A stretch of DNA of 64,000 nt from an uncultured Opitutaceae bacterium (GCA_951813085.1 OX638348.1:3295627-3359626); one strand, 5' to 3'. Shown: positions 5,077 through 13,521, numbered from the stretch's first letter. The notes: generated from the sequence alone by a model not told the origin. Numbers and translations: made by a program.

Positions 5077-5388
5077 TCGACTCGAAATGCCTGAATCGAT
5101 TTCAGGCTAAGGTCAAATACGATCTAAAACCTACTAAAACCAACAATTCTTTCATAGGTGTTATCCCTTAATAAGATGAGTCTTCTACCCAATATTACGC
5201 CATTGAATTCATTGAAAAATTCCCCCTCTGTAGGAGATAAAACAGGAGATTTCAGCGCTCCGTGCTGCTGCCTACTTGAAGGGATAAAATACCTTAACAA
5301 TTTCGCGCCGCGGACGATCTACAATTTTCGCCATCAGTATTTCCGTCATTCACGTGGCGTTGCCAATTTTTTACAAGCAATAGAGAAT
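5077..5388. other. Divergent intergenic region, no gene seen
   Basis: A 312-base AT-rich gap between the DUF1835-like gene (leftward) and the HDOD gene (rightward), so it should hold both promoters. In-frame codons extend the HDOD frame upstream to 5158, but that stretch (Cys-rich CCCLLEG, then basic and aromatic) does not resemble any HDOD N-terminus, so I read it as untranslated. No convincing promoter pair or hairpin was found. Confidence 0.4.
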
Positions 5389-6232
5389 ATGTCCCAAGAG
5401 TCTCAGTCTACCACATCTACTTCTCCAAAGCATCAGATCGCTGCCGAGCTTGAGGAAGGATTGAATTCCTCGAATCTAGAGCTTCCGGTAATGCCACGCG
5501 TAGCGAGCAAGGTTTTCACGCTCACGAACGATCCCAACGCAGAAGTAAGCGATCTTTCTAAGCTGATCCACAGCGATCAGTCCATCGCGTCTCACGTATT
5601 GAGAATCGCCAATTCCGCGGCCTACGGCGGTGGCGATCAGATCGTATCGCTTCAACAAGCTGTAGCTCGACTAGGCATGAACCTGCTGGGCGAAATCGCT
5701 ATCGCGGTATCGGTCCAGAGCGATCTTTTCAAGGCGCCCGGATTTGAAGCTCAGATTACTCAGCTTCTTAGGCATGCGCTCGCTTCGGCCGCCTACGGAA
5801 AGGAAATTTCACGCAAGCGTCGGCGCAATGTCGAGGGTCAGTTCCTTTGCGGGCTCCTTCATTCAGTCGGGAAGCCCATCGCTGTCCAGTTGATCGCTAA
5901 GCTCACTAAGGAAAAGGACCTCACTTTGGACAAGAAAAGCGTCGCTCAGCTCGCAGGCGCTTTTCATCGAAAGATCGCCGCCAAGGTAGCGGTGGACTGG
6001 AAGCTGCCCGAGCAGCTTCCAGTCCACCATCTACTACAAGCGATACGAGTCCGCTGCGACCTACCTATCGCAGCTGCTCGCGAGCTGGGTTATCAATCCC
6101 GCCAATTTCAAAGCGAACGAACTCATTAAGAACCCTGTTTTCGGCTATCTGAATTTCTATCCAGATGACGCGGATGACCTCCTTGATAAAAAAGACGATG
6201 TTAAGGCCATGGTATCGGCGATGGAGATATGA
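5389..6232 (+). pseudogene. HDOD-domain signalling protein, frameshifted near its end
   Basis: The HDOD domain is a degenerate HD-hydrolase fold used in bacterial signalling; it usually lacks enzymatic activity. The start MSQESQS was chosen because the domain begins soon after, with ELPVMPRVASKVFTL, SDLSKLIHSDQSIASHVLRIANSAAYG and CGLLHSVGKP. After PVHH the frame goes wrong. A +1 shift at about 6029-6033 restores the family-like tail YKRYESAATYLSQLLASW and runs to a TGA at 6230-6232. That TGA overlaps the sthA start codon as ATGA, so the true gene end is 6232 and the two genes were translationally coupled. Unshifted translation stops early at 6129. Confidence 0.75.
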
Positions 6233-6277
6233 AGATAGACGAAGAATTCGACTTGATCGTTATCGGTTCGGGTCCCG
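6229..6277 (+). pseudogene. sthA: sthA 5' fragment (first 16 codons)
   Basis: ATG at 6229 overlaps the HDOD stop. The codons give MKIDEEFDLIVIGSGP, the start of a flavin-dependent pyridine nucleotide transhydrogenase, and then the homology ends abruptly inside the FAD-binding GxGxxG motif. The rest of the same gene resumes at 12112 in the same frame: CCC-G here joins to GG-GGA-CAG there, giving IGSGPGGQKAA, as in E. coli SthA (IGSGPGGEGAA). The gene is therefore split by the intervening 5.8 kb. Confidence 0.93.
6273..6277 (+). other. attL core TCCCG of the sthA-inserted element
   Basis: The pentamer TCCCG recurs at 12108-12112, and both copies occupy the same codon phase of sthA. The wider left site reads GGTTCGGGTCCCG and the right site GGTCGAATCCCG, matching at 8 of the last 10 positions. 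Both resemble a tRNA T-arm (consensus GGTTCGAATCC). Crossover anywhere inside TCCCG gives the same products, so the exact cut is undetermined. Confidence 0.8.
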
Positions 6278-6563
6278 AAAATCCGAAGTGTATATTCATT
6301 ATCAATAACTTACAAGTTTATTGTGGATATTTGTGGGCAATGATGCCTTTTACAGTCGCCTCGATCAATCCCATATGAGGCACTTAAAACTAAATCGAAT
6401 TGCGTTTCCGCGATTTTGCAAGAGGCCATCGATAGCCTGAAAACGCCTTCGAATTAGAGATATCACATTGCGATAAATCTAACCTTGAGTCGAGCGTCTC
6501 TTTCGATTCCATTTCCGTTTCAAGCTATGTATTATCGCCGCCATTGCAAGGGCCGAAACGCCT

Positions 6564-6936
6564 TCAGGAGCGCTCCCGCCGCCTTCCCGGGCGGTCCCTT
6601 CCGGCCACGCCCTTGAATTTCTCGCAGGTCCGCAGGCCGCCCAGCCCCAGCATTCCGAGCAGGATCGTCATGAGCTCCCCCGTGTCCAGTTTCGGAGCGC
6701 CGGAAAGATCGTGGCCCGAAAGAAATCCGATCCACATCAGGATTGGCTGGGCGATGTAGTTCCACCCCAGCGCGGCGCCGCAAATCCAGCCGATGGCCGG
6801 GCGCCGCCTCCCGCTCGTTGACCCGGGTTTGGGCCGCCGACGCTTCCAAGGCGCCCTCGTTCTTGTTCGGGATGAGATCCAGGACCTTCTCGACGGCGGG
6901 GCCCAGGATGGGTTTTAAAAATGACGGGATGGCCAT
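6564..6936 (-). pseudogene. Holin of the 3-TM gene-transfer-agent type, frameshifted
   Basis: Holins of this family (PF11351, named for gene transfer agent release) make membrane holes during lysis. Frame one gives MAIPSFLKPILGPAVEKVLD then runs out of homology. A one-base shift near 6785-6795 gives RRPAIGWICGAALGWNYIAQ followed by LDTGELMTILLGMLGLGGL and a TGA ending at 6564, matching the holin pattern of an RPAIGW segment, hydrophobic helices and a GELM-xxL-xGMLGLGGLRT tail. AGGAG lies 9 bases before the ATG. The start is 3 bases after the stop of the upstream small gene. Its presence points to a phage origin for this part of the element. Confidence 0.75.
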
Positions 6937-6939
6937 CGG

Positions 6940-7185
6940 TCAGGTCTCCTTGCCTTTATGGATTTTCAGTTCGGTCTCCAGCTCCTTGATCCCGATGCCG
7001 CGCCCGCCTTTGTCCGCCTTGTAGACGGTGAGTATCGAGTCTATCCGCTCTGCATTGTAGTCAACGTCCTCTATCATCACGATGAGCTTGTCGCCCTCCT
7101 CGATGTAGACCGCGCCGGGCTCGAAGGAGCCCTTCTCTGGAACGCTTTCCAGGATATGATCTAGGAAGTCTCTGTTTTTGGCCAT
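6940..7185 (-). CDS. Small hypothetical protein of the element
   Basis: 81 residues, acidic and basic mixed, predicted soluble. The segment PGAVYIEEGDKLIVMIEDV looks like strands of a compact beta domain, followed by a helix rich in Lys/Glu. It ends 3 bases before the holin start, so the two form an operon. I do not recognise a family; position suggests a phage-derived accessory gene. The frame is intact and the composition protein-like. Confidence 0.65.
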   Translation of the reverse strand: MAKNRDFLDHILESVPEKGSFEPGAVYIEEGDKLIVMIEDVDYNAERIDSILTVYKADKGGRGIGIKELETELKIHKGKET

Positions 7186-7244
7186 AGCAATTCAGTGAAT
7201 CTATCGTCGAAATCCTTCGGGAACTTAGAAAATGCGGGACTCTC

Positions 7245-7511
7245 CTAGACCATGTCCCAGTCGAATATCTCGTCTCTATCGTTTACGAACACCACGAAAA
7301 GTCTGTCAGGCGGGAAAGGAACTTTAATACCTTTGTCAAGAAATCTCGTTTTCGCAACACCGCAGTAGCATCGCCCGTCCGCCATGTTCTCCCGCTTGAG
7401 GCCGCCGAAAACGCATAGCGGTTTCTCTAGAACCTCCTTGATCATCAGCGAATCCAGATACTTGGTCCTGCTTTTCGGCTTCACCTGCAGAAGTCCCGCG
7501 ATTCCTAGCAT
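7245..7511 (-). CDS. Small hypothetical protein of the element
   Basis: 88 residues with ATG start. Visible are a basic N-terminal third, a single CYCG pair in the middle, and a C-terminus FVVFVNDRDEIFDWDMV that looks like a beta strand with an acidic end. No family recognised. It lies upstream of the 81-residue gene on the same strand, 59 bases away. Its 5' end abuts the point where the P63C homology on the other strand begins, which suggests a rearrangement joint there. Confidence 0.6.
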   Translation of the reverse strand: MLGIAGLLQVKPKSRTKYLDSLMIKEVLEKPLCVFGGLKRENMADGRCYCGVAKTRFLDKGIKVPFPPDRLFVVFVNDRDEIFDWDMV

Positions 7512-7567
7512 TTAAGAACCTGCAGCCGTTCATAACCAAGCATTTAGGTCACCTGCAGAATATCACA

Positions 7568-8233
7568 GTGAAATACAGGACTGAAAACGGGAGGTCGGCG
7601 ATCGGGATCAAGGCCGAGATCATTCCAAAAATATGCGACGTATGGCTAGACGCCGACGAAAACGGCAAACTTCGCAAAACCCAAATCGAGATAGCAGCGA
7701 AAGCGAAACTGATAATGCGAGCCCTGGCGCATGTTGGCATCACGGCACTGGTTGACGAGGCTACGGGCTACCAATACGAACGGGCCCGAAACGCCTTGGG
7801 GGAGATTCTAGAGCGCTTTATTGCCAAAGAGCTGCAACCTTGGACAAAGACATTTCCGACTGATTTCTATGAAGAAATATTTCGATTGAAGAAGTGGAAA
7901 TTTGATCCTGCCACAATGCAGGGGCCAAGGGTCATTAGCGCCTACACGATGGATATTGTCTACAAAAGACTTGCCCCTGGTATCGTCGATGAATTGAAAT
8001 CTAAATCTCCACCGGTGGCTAAGGGAAGAAGGAAGAACAAGCTTCTTCAGTGGCTTACCGGAAATGTAGGACATCCGCAACTGAGAGCCCACATTGAGGC
8101 CGTTACCGCCTTGATGAGGGTCTCAAATAGCTGGGAGCAGTTTAAGAAATTCATAGACAAGGCTTATCCAATAATTGAGGTAACCGAACTCGGAACGTCT
8201 ACCCCGATAAAGAAAAGAAAATCGGTTCGTTAA
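7568..8233 (+). CDS. P63C-domain protein, N-terminally truncated
   Basis: P63C (PF10546) proteins occur in phages and mobile elements; their function is unknown to me. Seen: ALVDEATGYQYERARNALGEIL, then FPTDFYEEIFRLKKW, YKRLAPGIVDELK, GRRKNKLLQWLTGNVGHP and LMRVSNSWEQF, the family landmarks in order. The only usable start is GTG at 7568, but homologous-looking codons (LQPFITKHLGHLQNI) continue upstream in frame to about 7514 without a start codon. This fits loss of the 5' end of a longer gene. It may therefore be a remnant rather than a functional gene. Confidence 0.75.
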   Translation: MKYRTENGRSAIGIKAEIIPKICDVWLDADENGKLRKTQIEIAAKAKLIMRALAHVGITALVDEATGYQYERARNALGEILERFIAKELQPWTKTFPTDFYEEIFRLKKWKFDPATMQGPRVISAYTMDIVYKRLAPGIVDELKSKSPPVAKGRRKNKLLQWLTGNVGHPQLRAHIEAVTALMRVSNSWEQFKKFIDKAYPIIEVTELGTSTPIKKRKSVR

Positions 8234-8287
8234 ACTCCTTATTGATGGGGGCGGCAGAGGCTGGCCGGACTCTACAATCGTGGCCCA

Positions 8288-8315
8288 TGGGGTTTGATTC
8301 CCCACACCTCCACCA
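8288..8315 (+). other. tRNA/tmRNA-like T-arm and acceptor 3' half ending in CCA
   Basis: Bases 8288-8304 form a perfect 5-bp T-stem (TGGGG/CCCCA) around a 7-base loop TTTGATT. They are followed by a 7-base acceptor strand CACCTCC, a discriminator A and an encoded CCA (8313-8315). The GGGGGCG at 8247-8253 could pair with the acceptor strand at 6 of 7 positions, including a G3-U70 wobble as in tmRNA and tRNA-Ala. A D-arm-like stem AGAG/CTCT (8256-8259, 8270-8273) is also possible. Only 14 bases remain for an anticodon arm, too few for a tRNA. It is best read as an element-borne 3' fragment of a tRNA or tmRNA gene, such as an old attachment site. Confidence 0.6.
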
Positions 8316-8500
8316 ATTTCAAAAATGACATAGTTCCGGATTTCATCAATTCAAATTAGGACACTACCCGACTATTCCAAGCCTTGACTAGTCTGATAGA
8401 ATCGCGGATGGATACATCTGTTCCCGTTCCTTATGTCCAAATCTGAACCTATTTTAGCAGCTTTCCTGTTTTCAGACAGTACAATTGTAGAGGCGCGATC

Positions 8501-9382
8501 ATGAGTGCGGCTACGGCTGTAGCCGATTTTCCCGTTTCCCGGATCCCGGTCGTCAATGTCGCGACCGTTCCGCAGCGCAGTCCCTTGCGCTATCCCGGTG
8601 GCAAGACGTGGTTGATCCCGCACATCAGAGAGTGGTTGCGTCATGCGGGCGCGCGGCTCCTGATCGAGCCGTTTGCGGGGGGCGGCATCGCGACCTTGAC
8701 GGCGATTGCGGAAAACCTTGTTGGTGAGGCCGTGATGCTGGAAATTGACAGGGACGTTGCCGCGTTTTGGCGGGGCGCTTTTGAATCAGGGACAACGCTG
8801 GCTGAACGGGTTAGGCAATTCGAGCCAACCCTGGAAAGCCTGAACAAGCTGTTGAACGAACCGCCTAGATCCCTTGAAGAGCACGCCTTTCGCACTCTCG
8901 TTTTGAACCGTACCCGGCGGGGCGGGATTTTGGCTCCGGGCGCATCGTTTAGCCGCCAGGGCGAGAATGGGCGCGGCATCCTGTCGCGCTGGTATCCTGA
9001 TACGCTTGCCGAGCGTCTGTTGGCCTTGCAGAACTGCAATGATCGCATCACTTTCCTCGAAGGCGACGGGGTAAAGCTGTTGCCGTCTCTATTGCGCGGC
9101 TGGGGCCGCCAGGCAGCGGTGTTTCTAGATCCCCCATATACCGGTGACGGCGGCAAGCGCGCCGGGTCTCGGCTCTATGCGCATTCGGAAGTTGACCACG
9201 CAAGATTGTTCGCGCTGCTTGCCAAGTATCGTCCTTGCTTCCTAATGACGTATGACGCATCTCCCCAAATTATTGATCTGGTAAGGAAGCACGACTTCGA
9301 CGCGGTTTTGCTATCCATGAAGAACACCCATCACAACCAAATGCCGGAACTGGTGATTACTTCCAGCCCGCTGTTTGCATGA
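8501..9382 (+). CDS. D12-class (Dam-like) N6-adenine DNA methyltransferase
   Basis: The modification half of a restriction-modification pair. Landmarks in D12-class order: RYPGGK (30-35), SAM-binding EPFAGGG (56-62), an acidic residue after the next strand (EID, 81-83), and catalytic DPPY (210-213). Length 293 is typical for the class, which methylates adenine N6. AGAGG lies 9-10 bases before the ATG, and a TACAAT box is visible about 20 bases upstream. Its stop overlaps the start of the nuclease gene as ATGA, so the two are cotranslated, methylase first, as is common for type II systems. It looks more GC-rich than the flanking phage-like genes, which suggests separate acquisition. Confidence 0.92.
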   Translation: MSAATAVADFPVSRIPVVNVATVPQRSPLRYPGGKTWLIPHIREWLRHAGARLLIEPFAGGGIATLTAIAENLVGEAVMLEIDRDVAAFWRGAFESGTTLAERVRQFEPTLESLNKLLNEPPRSLEEHAFRTLVLNRTRRGGILAPGASFSRQGENGRGILSRWYPDTLAERLLALQNCNDRITFLEGDGVKLLPSLLRGWGRQAAVFLDPPYTGDGGKRAGSRLYAHSEVDHARLFALLAKYRPCFLMTYDASPQIIDLVRKHDFDAVLLSMKNTHHNQMPELVITSSPLFA

Positions 9383-10206
9383 GCCGGTACGGAATCGCTG
9401 AGTGGTTCGGCCATCCATTAACAACGCTTGCGCCGCCTCAAAGGCAGGCTTTCGCCCGAGCCGCATTGAAACAGACCGCCCCGCCGCCCTGTCCTTTCCA
9501 GTCGGGAAACCCGCCTTGCAGCAAGAAAGGCGGCGTGTGTTCGATCCAATCCAGGGAGAACGACCCGGTTATCACCTGTCCGCGGCGATTCGAGGAGGGA
9601 AATCTGATTCCACTGTGGCTCGCTGAGATTGTTGGCTTTCAAGATGTGTATGTCGCGCCCGAAGTACCATTTATGCGATCACCGTCAACCGGGCGTGCCG
9701 CAGGGCGAATCGATCTAGTAGTAGCCGGGAATAACCAGGCGTCGGACTGGTACGGGTTGGAGATTCAGGCTGTTTATTTCTCTGGCAAAGGCATGGAGGC
9801 CGATTTCCGAATGCTGTTGGAGAGTGAAGAAAGGGACCCGCCTTCGCCATCTGCGCCGCGCCGTCCTGACTGGCGGTCTTCAAGCGCAAAAAGGCTCATG
9901 CCGCAACTTCAAGTTAAGGGGCCGACCTTGCGACGATGGGGCACCAAACTCGCCGTTTCTGTCGATTATCCGTTCTTTGAAGCGATTGGTGGTCCGTCCG
10001 GCAACCCATCTCAGGACCTTGATGACGGCGACATTGTTTGGCTTGTGCCGCGCATGGGTGCAGATCGTCGTTTGAAGCGGGGCCATTGGGAGGTCCTGTC
10101 GCTTGAAGCATCCAGCGACAAGCTCTTGGCGGCGGACACCATCAAGCGCGGAGAATTCGAACAAAACTTGCGAGACAAACTTGAGAAACTGGGGAGCCGA
10201 CTATGA
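9379..10206 (+). CDS. NotI-family type II restriction endonuclease
   Basis: The restriction half of the pair. It shows two hallmarks of the NotI family (PF12183): four cysteines near the N-terminus (38, 47, 54, 67, with ITCPRRF around the last), as in the NotI iron-binding site, and a PD-(D/E)xK-type active site in its Gln variant, GRID at D112 followed by LEIQ at E128 and Q130. NotI itself uses Asp-Glu-Gln. Length 275. Translational coupling to the adenine methylase implies they share a target. That target should contain an adenine, unlike the all-GC NotI site, so the specificity is probably different. The frame is intact and likely functional. Confidence 0.85.
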   Translation: MSRYGIAEWFGHPLTTLAPPQRQAFARAALKQTAPPPCPFQSGNPPCSKKGGVCSIQSRENDPVITCPRRFEEGNLIPLWLAEIVGFQDVYVAPEVPFMRSPSTGRAAGRIDLVVAGNNQASDWYGLEIQAVYFSGKGMEADFRMLLESEERDPPSPSAPRRPDWRSSSAKRLMPQLQVKGPTLRRWGTKLAVSVDYPFFEAIGGPSGNPSQDLDDGDIVWLVPRMGADRRLKRGHWEVLSLEASSDKLLAADTIKRGEFEQNLRDKLEKLGSRL

Positions 10207-10261
10207 CACACCCCTACAATATCGGCTGTAATCGGGGTCATCAAGTAAGGCGGCATCACAA

Positions 10262-10402
10262 ATGCGATACAATTCACTTGTTCAAATGTTGGAAGTTTTC
10301 CGTGACGAACAATCCTGTATCAACCACTTGGAAAAACTGCGATGGGGTGCAGGGATAGTGTGCGCCTGTTGTGGTAGTACGCGGAAGATATACAAAAATT
10401 AG
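10262..10402 (+). pseudogene. IS1595-family transposase, N-terminal fragment
   Basis: 46 codons: a helix SLVQMLEVFRDEQSCINHLE, then KLRWGAGIVCACCGSTRK ending at TAG. The spacing F-x(3)-E-x-C...LRW-x-x-G-x-x-C-x-x-CG is that of the N-terminal zinc-ribbon region of IS1595-family transposases. The DDE catalytic domain is absent, so only a scrap of the insertion sequence remains. It starts 56 bases after the nuclease gene and marks an old insertion at the cargo edge. Confidence 0.7.
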
Positions 10403-10545
10403 GGAATGATATACTTAATAACCCCAATTATACCGGACGTTTTAGGGGTGCAAGGTCATACAATGCAACTGGAGTCAACTCATGGAAACGCCTCCCCCCT
10501 TGCGGGGCTTTCTACCCCTTTTTTCTATACCTTCTTGCCTGTTTT

Positions 10546-10569
10546 CCGGTTTTCGGCGTCGAAAACCGG
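10546..10569. repeat. Perfect 10-bp inverted repeat with 4-base loop
   Basis: CCGGTTTTCG, a GCGT loop, then CGAAAACCGG. It lies in the 293-base gene-free stretch 10403-10695 between the IS fragment and the integrase. No T-run follows on either strand, so it is not a standard terminator. Just upstream (about 10493-10530) is a C/G-rich hairpin followed by T-rich sequence that could be a weak terminator. Otherwise this gap shows nothing. Confidence 0.6.
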
Positions 10570-10695
10570 CGTTGACAGTCAGGCGTTTACGGTTGCAAGA
10601 TGTTGATTGTGAAAGGGTAGCGAATCTCAGTTAATTTCTGAAGTCCCTATCCTCTGTCTACGTAGAAACACCTACGACATACTGCGGCTTATACT

Positions 10696-11948
10696 TCAAT
10701 ACAAACCCGATATTTTATCGGAACTTCCTAAACCTCGCCCCGACTCGCGCTCCCGAAGCACTTCAGTCGATTGCGCATGGCTCATCAAAGTAGACGTCAA
10801 CGCCAAGTCCCCGAACGCCGCCACATGATTGGAGGCGAACGTGTGCCGCGCCCAATTCCTCGGAGGCGACTTCGCGAAGATCCCCTTCTCCGGCCGCTCG
10901 TCCGCCGCCGCGATCTTCAATCCCGCCACCTTCAGAGCGGCGCTCTTCTCATGCATCCAAGCCGTCTTGCGACGGTCGATCCAGTCCTTCCGATGCTCCG
11001 GGCTCTTCGGCTTCTAGCACGCCGGAGCGAAATCCTCCGGCCCCGCCCTCTCGATCCACTTCCAGAGATTCGTCGGCAAGCCCTCGATCAGCTGCCGCCG
11101 CCCCGCCTTCGCCTTCCAGGCCGGAGTCTCTATCCCCGGGAGATCGAACTTGAGGTCCCGCCACTCGAGCCGAGAGACCGCGCTGGCGCGCATCCCCGCG
11201 AACATCTCCAAAGCCAGCTTAGCGCATCGCCCCGGGAATCGCAGGTTCGCCCGCAGCAGGATCCTCCCGTCCTCAAGCGAAAGAAACTCGATGTCCGCCC
11301 GCTTCCTCCTCGGAGGCTTCAGCCTGGCGAACGGATGCCGGTCGATGCGCCCCTCGCAGCGCCCACGAAAACGCCACATTGACTCGCTTGTACTGATTCC
11401 GCTTCGTGTCCTGCGCGTACGGCAAATCGTCCACCCACGCCGAAAACCGCCCCGCCTCGCGAAAAAGCCCCGCCGCCGTCAAATTCCCGAAAGCCCGATT
11501 GAACCGCTTGAAGTGCGATCCGTATTGATTCGCCTCGAAATTCGCGTCCCGGCTTCCGATGATCCAGAAAGCCCGCCAAGATGGCCGACACCGGCTCCTG
11601 CCGAGTCCCCAAAGCCGCCCCCGAATCCGTATTCCGCATCCAAAAGCTAGCGACTTCCACCGGATCCGCCCCGCCGATCATCGCCTCCGCGATCTCCCAT
11701 CGCTTCCGCCTGGCCGGATCCAGAGACTTCGCGACCTTCCCCTCCGCGACCCGCGTCGCGTGGATGTCCGCCGCCCATTTTTCACGGAGCTCGATCTCCG
11801 CGAAACGCCGCCTCGCGGCGACCGACTTCGACCGCCCGTCGCTTCGCGCCTTGGGCGTGTAGTAGTATGCTCCATACGGCGACTTGGCGGACCCTGTCGA
11901 GCGAAAGAAAATCCCTTCGTATCCAGATTCAACCGCATCGCTAGCCAC
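10696..11948 (-). pseudogene. Tyrosine-type integrase of the element, multiply frameshifted
   Basis: Pieces of one tyrosine recombinase occur in successive frames. From 11948 comes an N-terminal arm-binding part (GIFFRSTG...YGAYYYTPKA). Near 11480-11380 comes core-binding sequence (GLFREAGRFSAWVDDLPYAQ). From 11379 comes box I with the catalytic Arg (MFAGMRASAVSRLEWRDL). From 10956 to 10696 comes box II (RNWARHTFASNHVAAFGD) and LMSHAQSTEVLRE, where the expected tyrosine is missing. At least three frame changes are needed. It starts at a GTG about 160 bases from the right attachment core, the usual place for an integrase. Inactive as written. Confidence 0.85.
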
Positions 11949-12107
11949 CGCCCGAAAATTGCGGGTCGTTGTGGGTCAAGCAAGCTTTTTTGAGGGTTTT
12001 AGAGTGTTAAAAACGCCCCTCTCTCAGCCCTATATAAATTTATAAGTTGCTTATATTAAGGTACTTGCTAGACTTTTCCCTCGAAATTCCCCCCTTAAAT
12101 GGTCGAA

Positions 12108-12112
12108 TCCCG
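12108..12112 (+). other. attR core TCCCG
   Basis: Right boundary of the element. The local sequence GGTCGAATCCCGG is closer than the left site to the tRNA T-arm consensus GGTTCGAATCC; its left part should derive from the element's own attP. From 12112 onward the sthA frame resumes. The 12046-12111 stretch is open in the sthA frame but has no start codon, so no fused start is supplied by the element. Confidence 0.8.
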
Positions 12113-13521
12113 GGGGACAGAAAGCCGCAATCCAAGGAGCGAACGCAGGACTCAAAGTAGCTCTAATTGAACGAGAGCGAAAAGTAGGTGGCACCTGCGT
12201 ACATCACGGCACTATCCCAAGCAAAACTCTCAGAGAAGCCGCGCTCACCATTACCACCTTGCGCAGAAATGCGGACGTGTTCGACTTCAAGCTGAAGGAC
12301 AATATGGAGGTATCCACCTTGATGAGGCGGCTCGATTCCGTCCTCGGATCATACACGGACTTCATCGCCGAATATCTCAACTCTCAAGGGATTTCCTACT
12401 TTCATGGCCGCGCGTCGATCGAAGACGCCAACACTGTCTCCCTAACGACACTCAAGGGATCCGCTAGCTACCTGAAAACGAAATTCATGGTGATCGCGAC
12501 CGGGTCCCGACCCAGGACGCCTCCGGACATCACCGTCGATCACGAGAACATTCTCGATAGCGACTCCATCCTGAGCATGATTTATCTTCCGCGATCCCTA
12601 ACCGTCGTCGGCGGTGGCGTGATCGCATCCGAGTACGCCTCCATATTCTCCTTGCTAGGCGTGAAGGTCACCATGTTCGATCGCACACCAAGGCCCCTAA
12701 TGTTCATGGAGCCCGAGTGTACCGAGAAATTCCTGCACCATTTCACGACCAATGGGGGTGAATATATTGGAGACGTTCAGTATGAAAGCGTCGAATGGGA
12801 CTCTGTTTCCCAAGTGATCACCAAACTCAGCGACGGCACCGAAATTTCTAGCGACAAGATGCTGGTGGCCCAAGGTCGGATCGCCAATACTGATCGGATC
12901 GGTCTCGAAACCCTTGGAATACAGCTTGGACGAAACGGAACGATTCCAGTCAATGAGAACTACGAGACAGCTGTCGAAGGCGTCTATGCAGTCGGGGACG
13001 TAATTGATCCCCCATCCCTTGCTTCGGTATCGATGGAGCAAGGACGCCGGGCGATTTGCCATGCCCTAGGGACCGATCTAGGGAGCAAGTTCGAGCTCGT
13101 TCCTATTGGTATTTACGCGGTTCCAGAGCTTTCCAGCGTTGGCTTGTCAGAAGAGCAAGCCAGGGAAAAGTACGGAGACGATATCATTGTCGGCAGGGCT
13201 AGTTTCGACGAAGTCGCTCGCGGACAGATCGCCGGAATCAAGGATGGTCTCCTAACAATGATCGTTGAATCGAAAACGCTGAAAATCGTTGGTGTTCACA
13301 TCGTCGCCGAAGGGGCGACAGATTTGATCCACGTCGGGGAGATGGCGATTCTCAACAACAACGATGTTCGGGTATTTCTCGAGAATGTATTGAATTTTCC
13401 AACACTTGGAGAAGCCTATCGAATCGCTGCGTTGAATATCGTTACAAAGCATGCGGAGCGAGCGGCGAAGAAGCCCGAGTCGCGTATCCAGAATTTGATC
13501 GAGCAAGCCGAACTGAACTAA
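12112..13521 (+). pseudogene. sthA: sthA 3' part: soluble pyridine nucleotide transhydrogenase
   Basis: SthA is a flavoprotein that passes hydride from NADPH to NAD+, balancing the two pools. Seen: GGTCVHHGTIPSKTLREA (as in SthA, with only one of the two disulfide cysteines of its relatives), VIATGSRPRTP, DSDSILSM, the NAD-binding VVGGGVIASEYASIF, VYAVGDVIDPPSLAS and the dimerisation domain ending at 13521. Joined to 6229-6276 it would be about 485 residues (E. coli 466). As it stands the first in-frame ATG is 12259, which would leave out the FAD-binding Rossmann motif and the GGTC segment, so any product should be inactive. Confidence 0.92.

Follow-up and report, generated by a model that had tools for sequence, protein, structure and literature searches.

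A prophage-like remnant within sthA

The DNA analysed here, called the window, is a 64,000-nucleotide stretch (3,295,627-3,359,626) of the 4.85-Mb genome, assembled as one contig, of an uncultured Opitutaceae bacterium, for which named relatives suggest a position within or close to the Opitutales, Verrucomicrobiota. The window contains a decayed, dead prophage-like remnant that carries a restriction-modification pair and interrupts the gene sthA (Table 1). In the initial annotation, the attachment (att) sites of this element were described as resembling the T-arm of a tRNA, and a tRNA-type integrase was proposed to have used a coding sequence as a mimic.

The homology to sthA was found to break off after GGTTCGGGTCCCG (6265-6277) and to pick up again at 12108 with TCCCGGGGGACAG (GGQKAAIQG...). 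The att sequences first quoted, GGTTCGGGTCCCG and GGTCGAATCCCG (12101-12112), were both verified at these positions. When the host halves were fused at TCCCG, a single 485-codon open reading frame (ORF), beginning MKIDEEFDLIVIGSGPGGQK, was obtained without gap or stop. The joined ORF scored 518 bits to the NF003585 equivalog (cut-off 465) and is an Si-specific NAD(P)+ transhydrogenase (SthA). The gene was intact in 13 relatives, among them two congeners with 90% and 87% identity, and at the junction zero host bases were lost or gained. Since the joined host halves restore an ORF that the relatives have uninterrupted, the precise insertion of approximately 5.8 kb inside sthA is certain.

The only exact direct repeat between attL and attR was the 5-base TCCCG (6273-6277 and 12108-12112). 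The reconstructed element site (attP) was TTAAATGGTCGAA-TCCCG-AAAATCCGAAG and the host site (attB), located in the GSGPGG codons of sthA, was GGTTCGGG-TCCCG-GGGGACAG, with TCCCG alone common to both. As attP brings no replacement sequence, the insertion breaks sthA. The lineage-specific changes in the remainder of the gene were 80 synonymous to 12 nonsynonymous, compared with 59 to 8 in a relative with intact sthA. This pattern, like that of an intact gene, and the absence of lesions from the remainder indicate that the insertion was recent relative to the split from that relative. A transposition event duplicating a target of 5 bp was rejected, as the element ends, inspected by eye, are not inverted repeats and the sole transposase trace is an IS1595-type fragment. 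Arm-type repeats were also sought at the element ends, and nothing convincing was seen.

Table 1. Features of the sthA locus (window coordinates)
Feature	Position	Strand	Evidence or remark
sthA 5′ fragment (MKIDEEFDLIVIGSGP), host half of attL	6229..6277	+	NF003585 above cut-off for the joined protein
T-arm-like GGTTCGGGTCC	6265-6275		Overlaps the left TCCCG copy
Identity block TCCCG (5 bp) of attL/attR, left copy	6273..6277	+	
Element left end	6278..6490		Absent from the second genomic copy
Duplicated segment, 5,087 bp	6491..11577		Second copy at G000:C1:4542804-4547890(-)
3TM holin gene, frameshifted	6532..6936	-	Both frames together: PF11351 3.4e-7, phrog_3427 5.7e-14
P63C-domain phage protein, N-terminally truncated	7568..8233	+	PF10546 6.5e-30; phrog_2384 profile positions 123-325 of 338
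Degenerate tRNA/tmRNA-like 3′ end (GGGGTTTGATTCCCCACACCTCCACCA)	8247..8315	+	RF00023 17.7 bits, below gathering
D12-class adenine DNA methyltransferase, ORF intact	8501..9382	+	PF02086 9.9e-10; phrog_56 7.3e-25
NotI-like restriction endonuclease, ORF intact	9379..10206	+	PF12183 7e-40, 137 bits (cut-off 22)
IS1595-type transposase fragment (zinc ribbon)	10262..10402	+	PF12760 3.2e-8
Tyrosine integrase pseudogene	10770..11948	-	Start GTG at 11948, reading inward
Element half of attR, GGTCGAATCCCG	12101..12112	+	Right TCCCG at 12108-12112
sthA 3′ part	12113..13521	+	Free of stops and frameshifts

The integrase and its family

The integrase gene (int) is disabled by frameshifts near 11546 and 11350, both in runs of G, and by an in-frame TAG at approximately 11014-11016, and its C-terminal segment, including the catalytic Tyr, is missing. 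Homology to tyrosine recombinases was evident from the catalytic R (GMRAS), K (WKAK) and RH (NWARHTF), which fall in alignment columns that are invariant among five intact relatives; the match of the reconstructed protein to PF00589 was below the cut-off (E 0.23). The G-run frameshifts are common to both genomic copies of the duplicated segment and could in principle be assembly errors, but such errors do not readily account for the missing C-terminus. In profile and protein searches, the closest relatives in genomes reached 31-39% identity at best over long alignments. No close relative was found in phages or plasmids, nor in viral contigs when the N- or C-terminal part was searched alone.

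The family was counted as the 50 distinct genomic members having at least 500 bp of upstream sequence. In 28 of the 50, a tRNA or tmRNA gene was present within 500 bp of int, always on the int strand and with its 3′ end facing int, and the distance from tRNA 3′ end to int start ranged from 44 to 312 bp. Beyond these, three members had a same-strand tRNA 3′ fragment and one an opposite-strand fragment. Three other integrases of the window genome also sit behind tRNA 3′ ends. The lineage is tRNA/tmRNA-targeting at the family level, and to this extent the proposal of a tRNA-type integrase holds. The window int itself is a pseudogene on a weakly placed branch.

The tree contained two well-supported groups, clade A, which is tRNA-linked, and clade B, comprising tandem integrases, several of them behind tmRNA or tRNA-Ser. 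Both att copies were readable in four clade A elements (L059, Met; L089, Val; L095, Pro; L103, Ala). Their att blocks, CCGACAGGGCCCACCAA, TCCTGTAGCGTCCACCAT, CTCACCGCCCCGACCATCTTC and CTCCTAGGGTCCACCACTT, begin at T-arm position 60/61 and extend for 17-21 bp through CCA; the attP arm to the left of the block is not T-loop-like. A tRNA 3′ part opposite to int was seen in two distant relatives only, L022 (int 1197, -145) and L028 (int 831, -101), a layout that places int at the distal att site. Two near-identical G094 integrases were set aside as a natural experiment because their flanks are too rearranged for the site to be defined.

In clade B, two tyrosine integrases of distinct subclades were found in tandem in L142, L143, L085, L087, L118 and L119, several downstream of tmRNA, possibly a two-integrase tmRNA-targeting system in Puniceicoccales/Opitutales. 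No distal tRNA fragments of the tmRNA-linked elements were found within 11-13 kb. Separately, another island, whose block measures 21 bp (GAGTTCGAATCTCGGTGGCCC), splits a tRNA-Pro(ggg) gene of the window genome (G000:C1:4551930-4552004 and 4563085). The reconstituted copy ends in TAGGG, not GACCA, and has no genome-encoded CCA.

The window site measured against the family rule

In the register of the initial annotation, the window core starts at T-arm position 60, like the clade A blocks, and this is the best single point in favour of T-arm mimicry. The core is 5 bp long compared with 17-21 bp in clade A, and upstream of int lies sthA and no tRNA gene. Relative to int, the T-arm motif occupies the other strand, whereas in all 28 relatives with a nearby tRNA or tmRNA gene that gene shares the strand of int; the reverse complement of attB has four mismatches to the T-arm consensus, the level of most random zones.

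Where the attP of the relatives has 17-21 bp of a tRNA 3′ end with CCA, that of the window, TCCCGAAAATCCGAAGT, showed no tRNA 3′ end or CCA in either orientation. No tRNA match to attP was found among the 30 of the genome's tRNA 3′ tails that were compared. A pattern search of the same genome for the native tRNA, allowing up to 3 mismatches in 20 nt, returned only two non-tRNA places with 3 mismatches each. An attempt to read attP in the int orientation as a tRNA 3′ end (TTTCG GGATTCG A CCA) was abandoned, there being no such tRNA among the 30 tails.

Other genes with a GSGP motif had been predicted as secondary sites, and the att sites of relatives were to be listed for comparison. In the four clade A elements with readable att copies, these were tRNA blocks starting at T-arm position 60/61. 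GGNTCNGGNCC was not found within 400 bp upstream of the int of any relative, and the prediction of other GSGP sites thus gained no case. A Rossmann-like GGTGCGGGTG upstream of the L034 int was dropped, as the upstream ORFs are not a flavoprotein.

An attP free of the tRNA 3′ end that tRNA-using relatives possess would also be expected had the conserved FAD-motif codons of sthA become, through evolution, the regular site of this lineage, and conserved protein genes are frequent targets of integrases (PMC10111431). Such retargeting is nevertheless very unlikely, given that the sthA site was empty in 13 of 13 relatives, that the identity block is only 5 bp, and that the gene was destroyed by an attP with no replacement sequence.

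Resemblance of the att sites to a T-arm

Aligned without gaps to the consensus GGTTCRANYCC, attB had one mismatch (A58 = G) and attP two; the attP alignment given in the initial annotation needs a one-base gap. Random 33-nt zones from the same genome matched as well, on either strand, in 1.0% of cases for attB and 7.6% for attP, and zones centred on TCCCG in 1.8% and 10.6%, respectively. Among the tRNA tails, attB scored best with tRNA-Lys(ctt), at 14/16 (1.2% by chance on both strands), and attP with tRNA-Pro(tgg), at 13/16 (7.7% by chance). Because the T-arm was chosen post hoc and attB and attP share the core, the likeness is suggestive at most.

Much of the match in attB follows from the protein motif. 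A G-S-G-P run with a TCN serine dictates GG, TC and CC, six of the consensus bases, and by our estimate approximately 1/16 of such codon runs would be this T-arm-like through the three wobble bases alone. In the 13 relatives, the GSGP codons of sthA had 2-6 mismatches to the consensus. The inverted repeats of at least 4 bp in attB were only GTCCC-gg-GGGAC (shorter pairs being nested) and CGGG-t-CCCG, and attP had none. From this inventory, neither site has a T-stem: only the GG/CC part is present, and the 5-bp dyad with a 7-nt spacer is absent. The sequences on which the initial claim rested are sound; the likeness itself is modest.

The genome contains 92 perfect GGTTCRANYCC sites, roughly half of them outside tRNA genes, so T-arm likeness fails to explain the choice of sthA, as it had been invoked to do; the strand of the motif, opposite to int, also speaks against that explanation. 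True mimicry, in which the integrase would natively use a tRNA T-arm as attB and would have taken the sthA GSGP codons because they spell GGTTCGGGTCC, is consistent with the single mismatch in attB, the 14/16 match to tRNA-Lys(ctt), the core start at position 60 and the tRNA-targeting family. It is judged unlikely in view of the reversed strand, the missing T-stem, an attP that has no tRNA 3′ end, CCA or matching tRNA, the absence of a further GSGP insertion among the relatives, and the dozens of perfect non-tRNA matches left unused. In addition, the left attP arm of clade A elements is not T-loop-like, so T-arm likeness there is not predicted by the model. The fuller version, in which a tRNA-type integrase would read a Rossmann codon run as a T-arm and cross over at the position used by the relatives, with int at the opposite end, and in which GSGP codons would be predictable secondary sites, is distinctly improbable.

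Element contents and the second genomic copy

The two copies of the 5,087-bp segment differ by one mismatch, at 10665, and the int lesions are identical in both. The segment includes the methylase and the nuclease, the latter belonging to the NotI type with a PF12183 score above the curated cut-off. The second copy (L044, G000:C1:4542804-4547890) has neither att end nor the int N-terminus; with both ends missing, it was ruled out as a source of another att site. Its left end bears one additional phage-like ORF, and the ancestral element was therefore probably larger. The copy lies in a region where genes for tRNA-Leu(caa) and tRNA-Pro(ggg) are duplicated, and it adjoins a duplicated VanZ-like gene start.

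The int lesions bear on whether the integrase was already dead and the insertion was the work of another recombinase acting in trans or of illegitimate recombination at a match of 5 bp. Approximately four lesions disable int, whereas the sthA remainder is free of them; from the lengths, we estimate a chance of approximately 5% for this had both decayed from the same date. The identical lesions in the duplicated segment and the 5-bp core point the same way. Conversely, the junction has no loss or gain of host bases, and the direction of int and its spacing to the junction are those of the family. This origin is regarded as highly improbable.

The degenerate tRNA/tmRNA-like sequence at 8247-8315, which separates the P63C gene from the methylase, has a T-arm, an acceptor 3′ strand and CCA. 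ARAGORN made no call there; by eye, a CTA anticodon is possible, and the integrase carries an in-frame TAG. A 189-bp stretch at 10208-10397, overlapping the IS1595-type fragment, had two 78%-identical matches in the genome (G000:C1:3898139-3898327 and 1361250-1361438). Directly upstream of sthA, an HDOD gene (5158-6231) has a frameshift located at a perfect inverted repeat of 17 bp (GGTGGACTGGAAGCTGC; palindrome 5991-6028) and is without approximately eight residues (APAFKDES) present in two relatives. The lesion has the look of either an assembly error or a mutation by template switching.

Discussion

The reading that we favour, with somewhat better than even confidence, is that a prophage-like element of the tRNA-targeting family inserted into a coding sequence either at a secondary site or after its specificity had drifted. 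The element, with an integrase of the verrucomicrobial tRNA/tmRNA-targeting family, would have recombined its attP with the GSGPGG codons of sthA via TCCCG, taking a non-tRNA site either off target, in the manner of ICEBs1, or through drift. sthA would thereby have been cut inside its FAD-binding motif with attP supplying no replacement, and the element, presumably unable to leave, would have been trapped and then have decayed, with the methylase/nuclease pair staying intact. That this integrase made the insertion is suggested by the inward-reading int, whose 5′ end is separated from the right junction by approximately 160 bp, within the family spacing of 44-312 bp. T-arm likeness may have added some binding or overlap similarity; as a cause it is not demonstrated.

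Several observations weigh against this interpretation. An identity block longer than 5 bp would be expected of a tyrosine integrase. The integrase is non-functional and has no relative above approximately 39% identity, so its specificity is not readable from int itself, and its long branch (2.1), with weak support, is not firmly in clade A or B. It is also far more decayed than sthA, which leaves room for an integrase dead on arrival and an element moved in trans.

The closest parallel to an off-target or drifted insertion is ICEBs1 of Bacillus subtilis, a tRNA-targeting tyrosine-integrase element that, without its tRNA attB, integrates in protein genes and intergenic sites with 2-12 mismatches of 17 from attB (PMC3715440). 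As in the window, protein-coding genes are entered; the secondary sites match the tRNA attB partially, the crossover sequences at the left and right ends stay different, and excision is impaired (PMC3715440). ICEBs1 differs in that the conjugative element is intact and its attB is 17 bp long, with 5-bp arms and a 7-bp spacer (PMC3715440), whereas the window holds a prophage remnant whose site has no T-stem-like dyad. The clade A elements at tRNA 3′ ends in Opitutales and their relatives share the int family, the inward-reading int with its 5′ end beside one att at similar spacing and, if the initial register is used, the core start at 60/61. They differ in that the tRNA lies on the int strand and is restored by blocks of 17-21 bp reaching through CCA; at the window site the block is 5 bp long, CCA is absent and the motif is on the other strand. 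Helper-embedded phage-inducible chromosomal islands, like the window element, insert in coding sequence with no replacement from attP and break the gene, and near-identical integrases also use tRNA genes (PMC10111431). Their insertions are recurrent and specific (PMC10111431), in contrast to the single insertion with a dead integrase seen here.

The event itself is of an ordinary kind, and the T-arm twist is appealing but weakly supported. If mimicry were true, protein motifs would allow the secondary sites of tRNA-type integrases to be predicted; this is not established by the present data. For Verrucomicrobiota, the locus is a concrete example of a coding-sequence site occupied by an element with a tRNA-family integrase, and the family rule, with the block starting at T-arm position 60/61 and the tRNA on the int strand, gives a yardstick for off-target sites.

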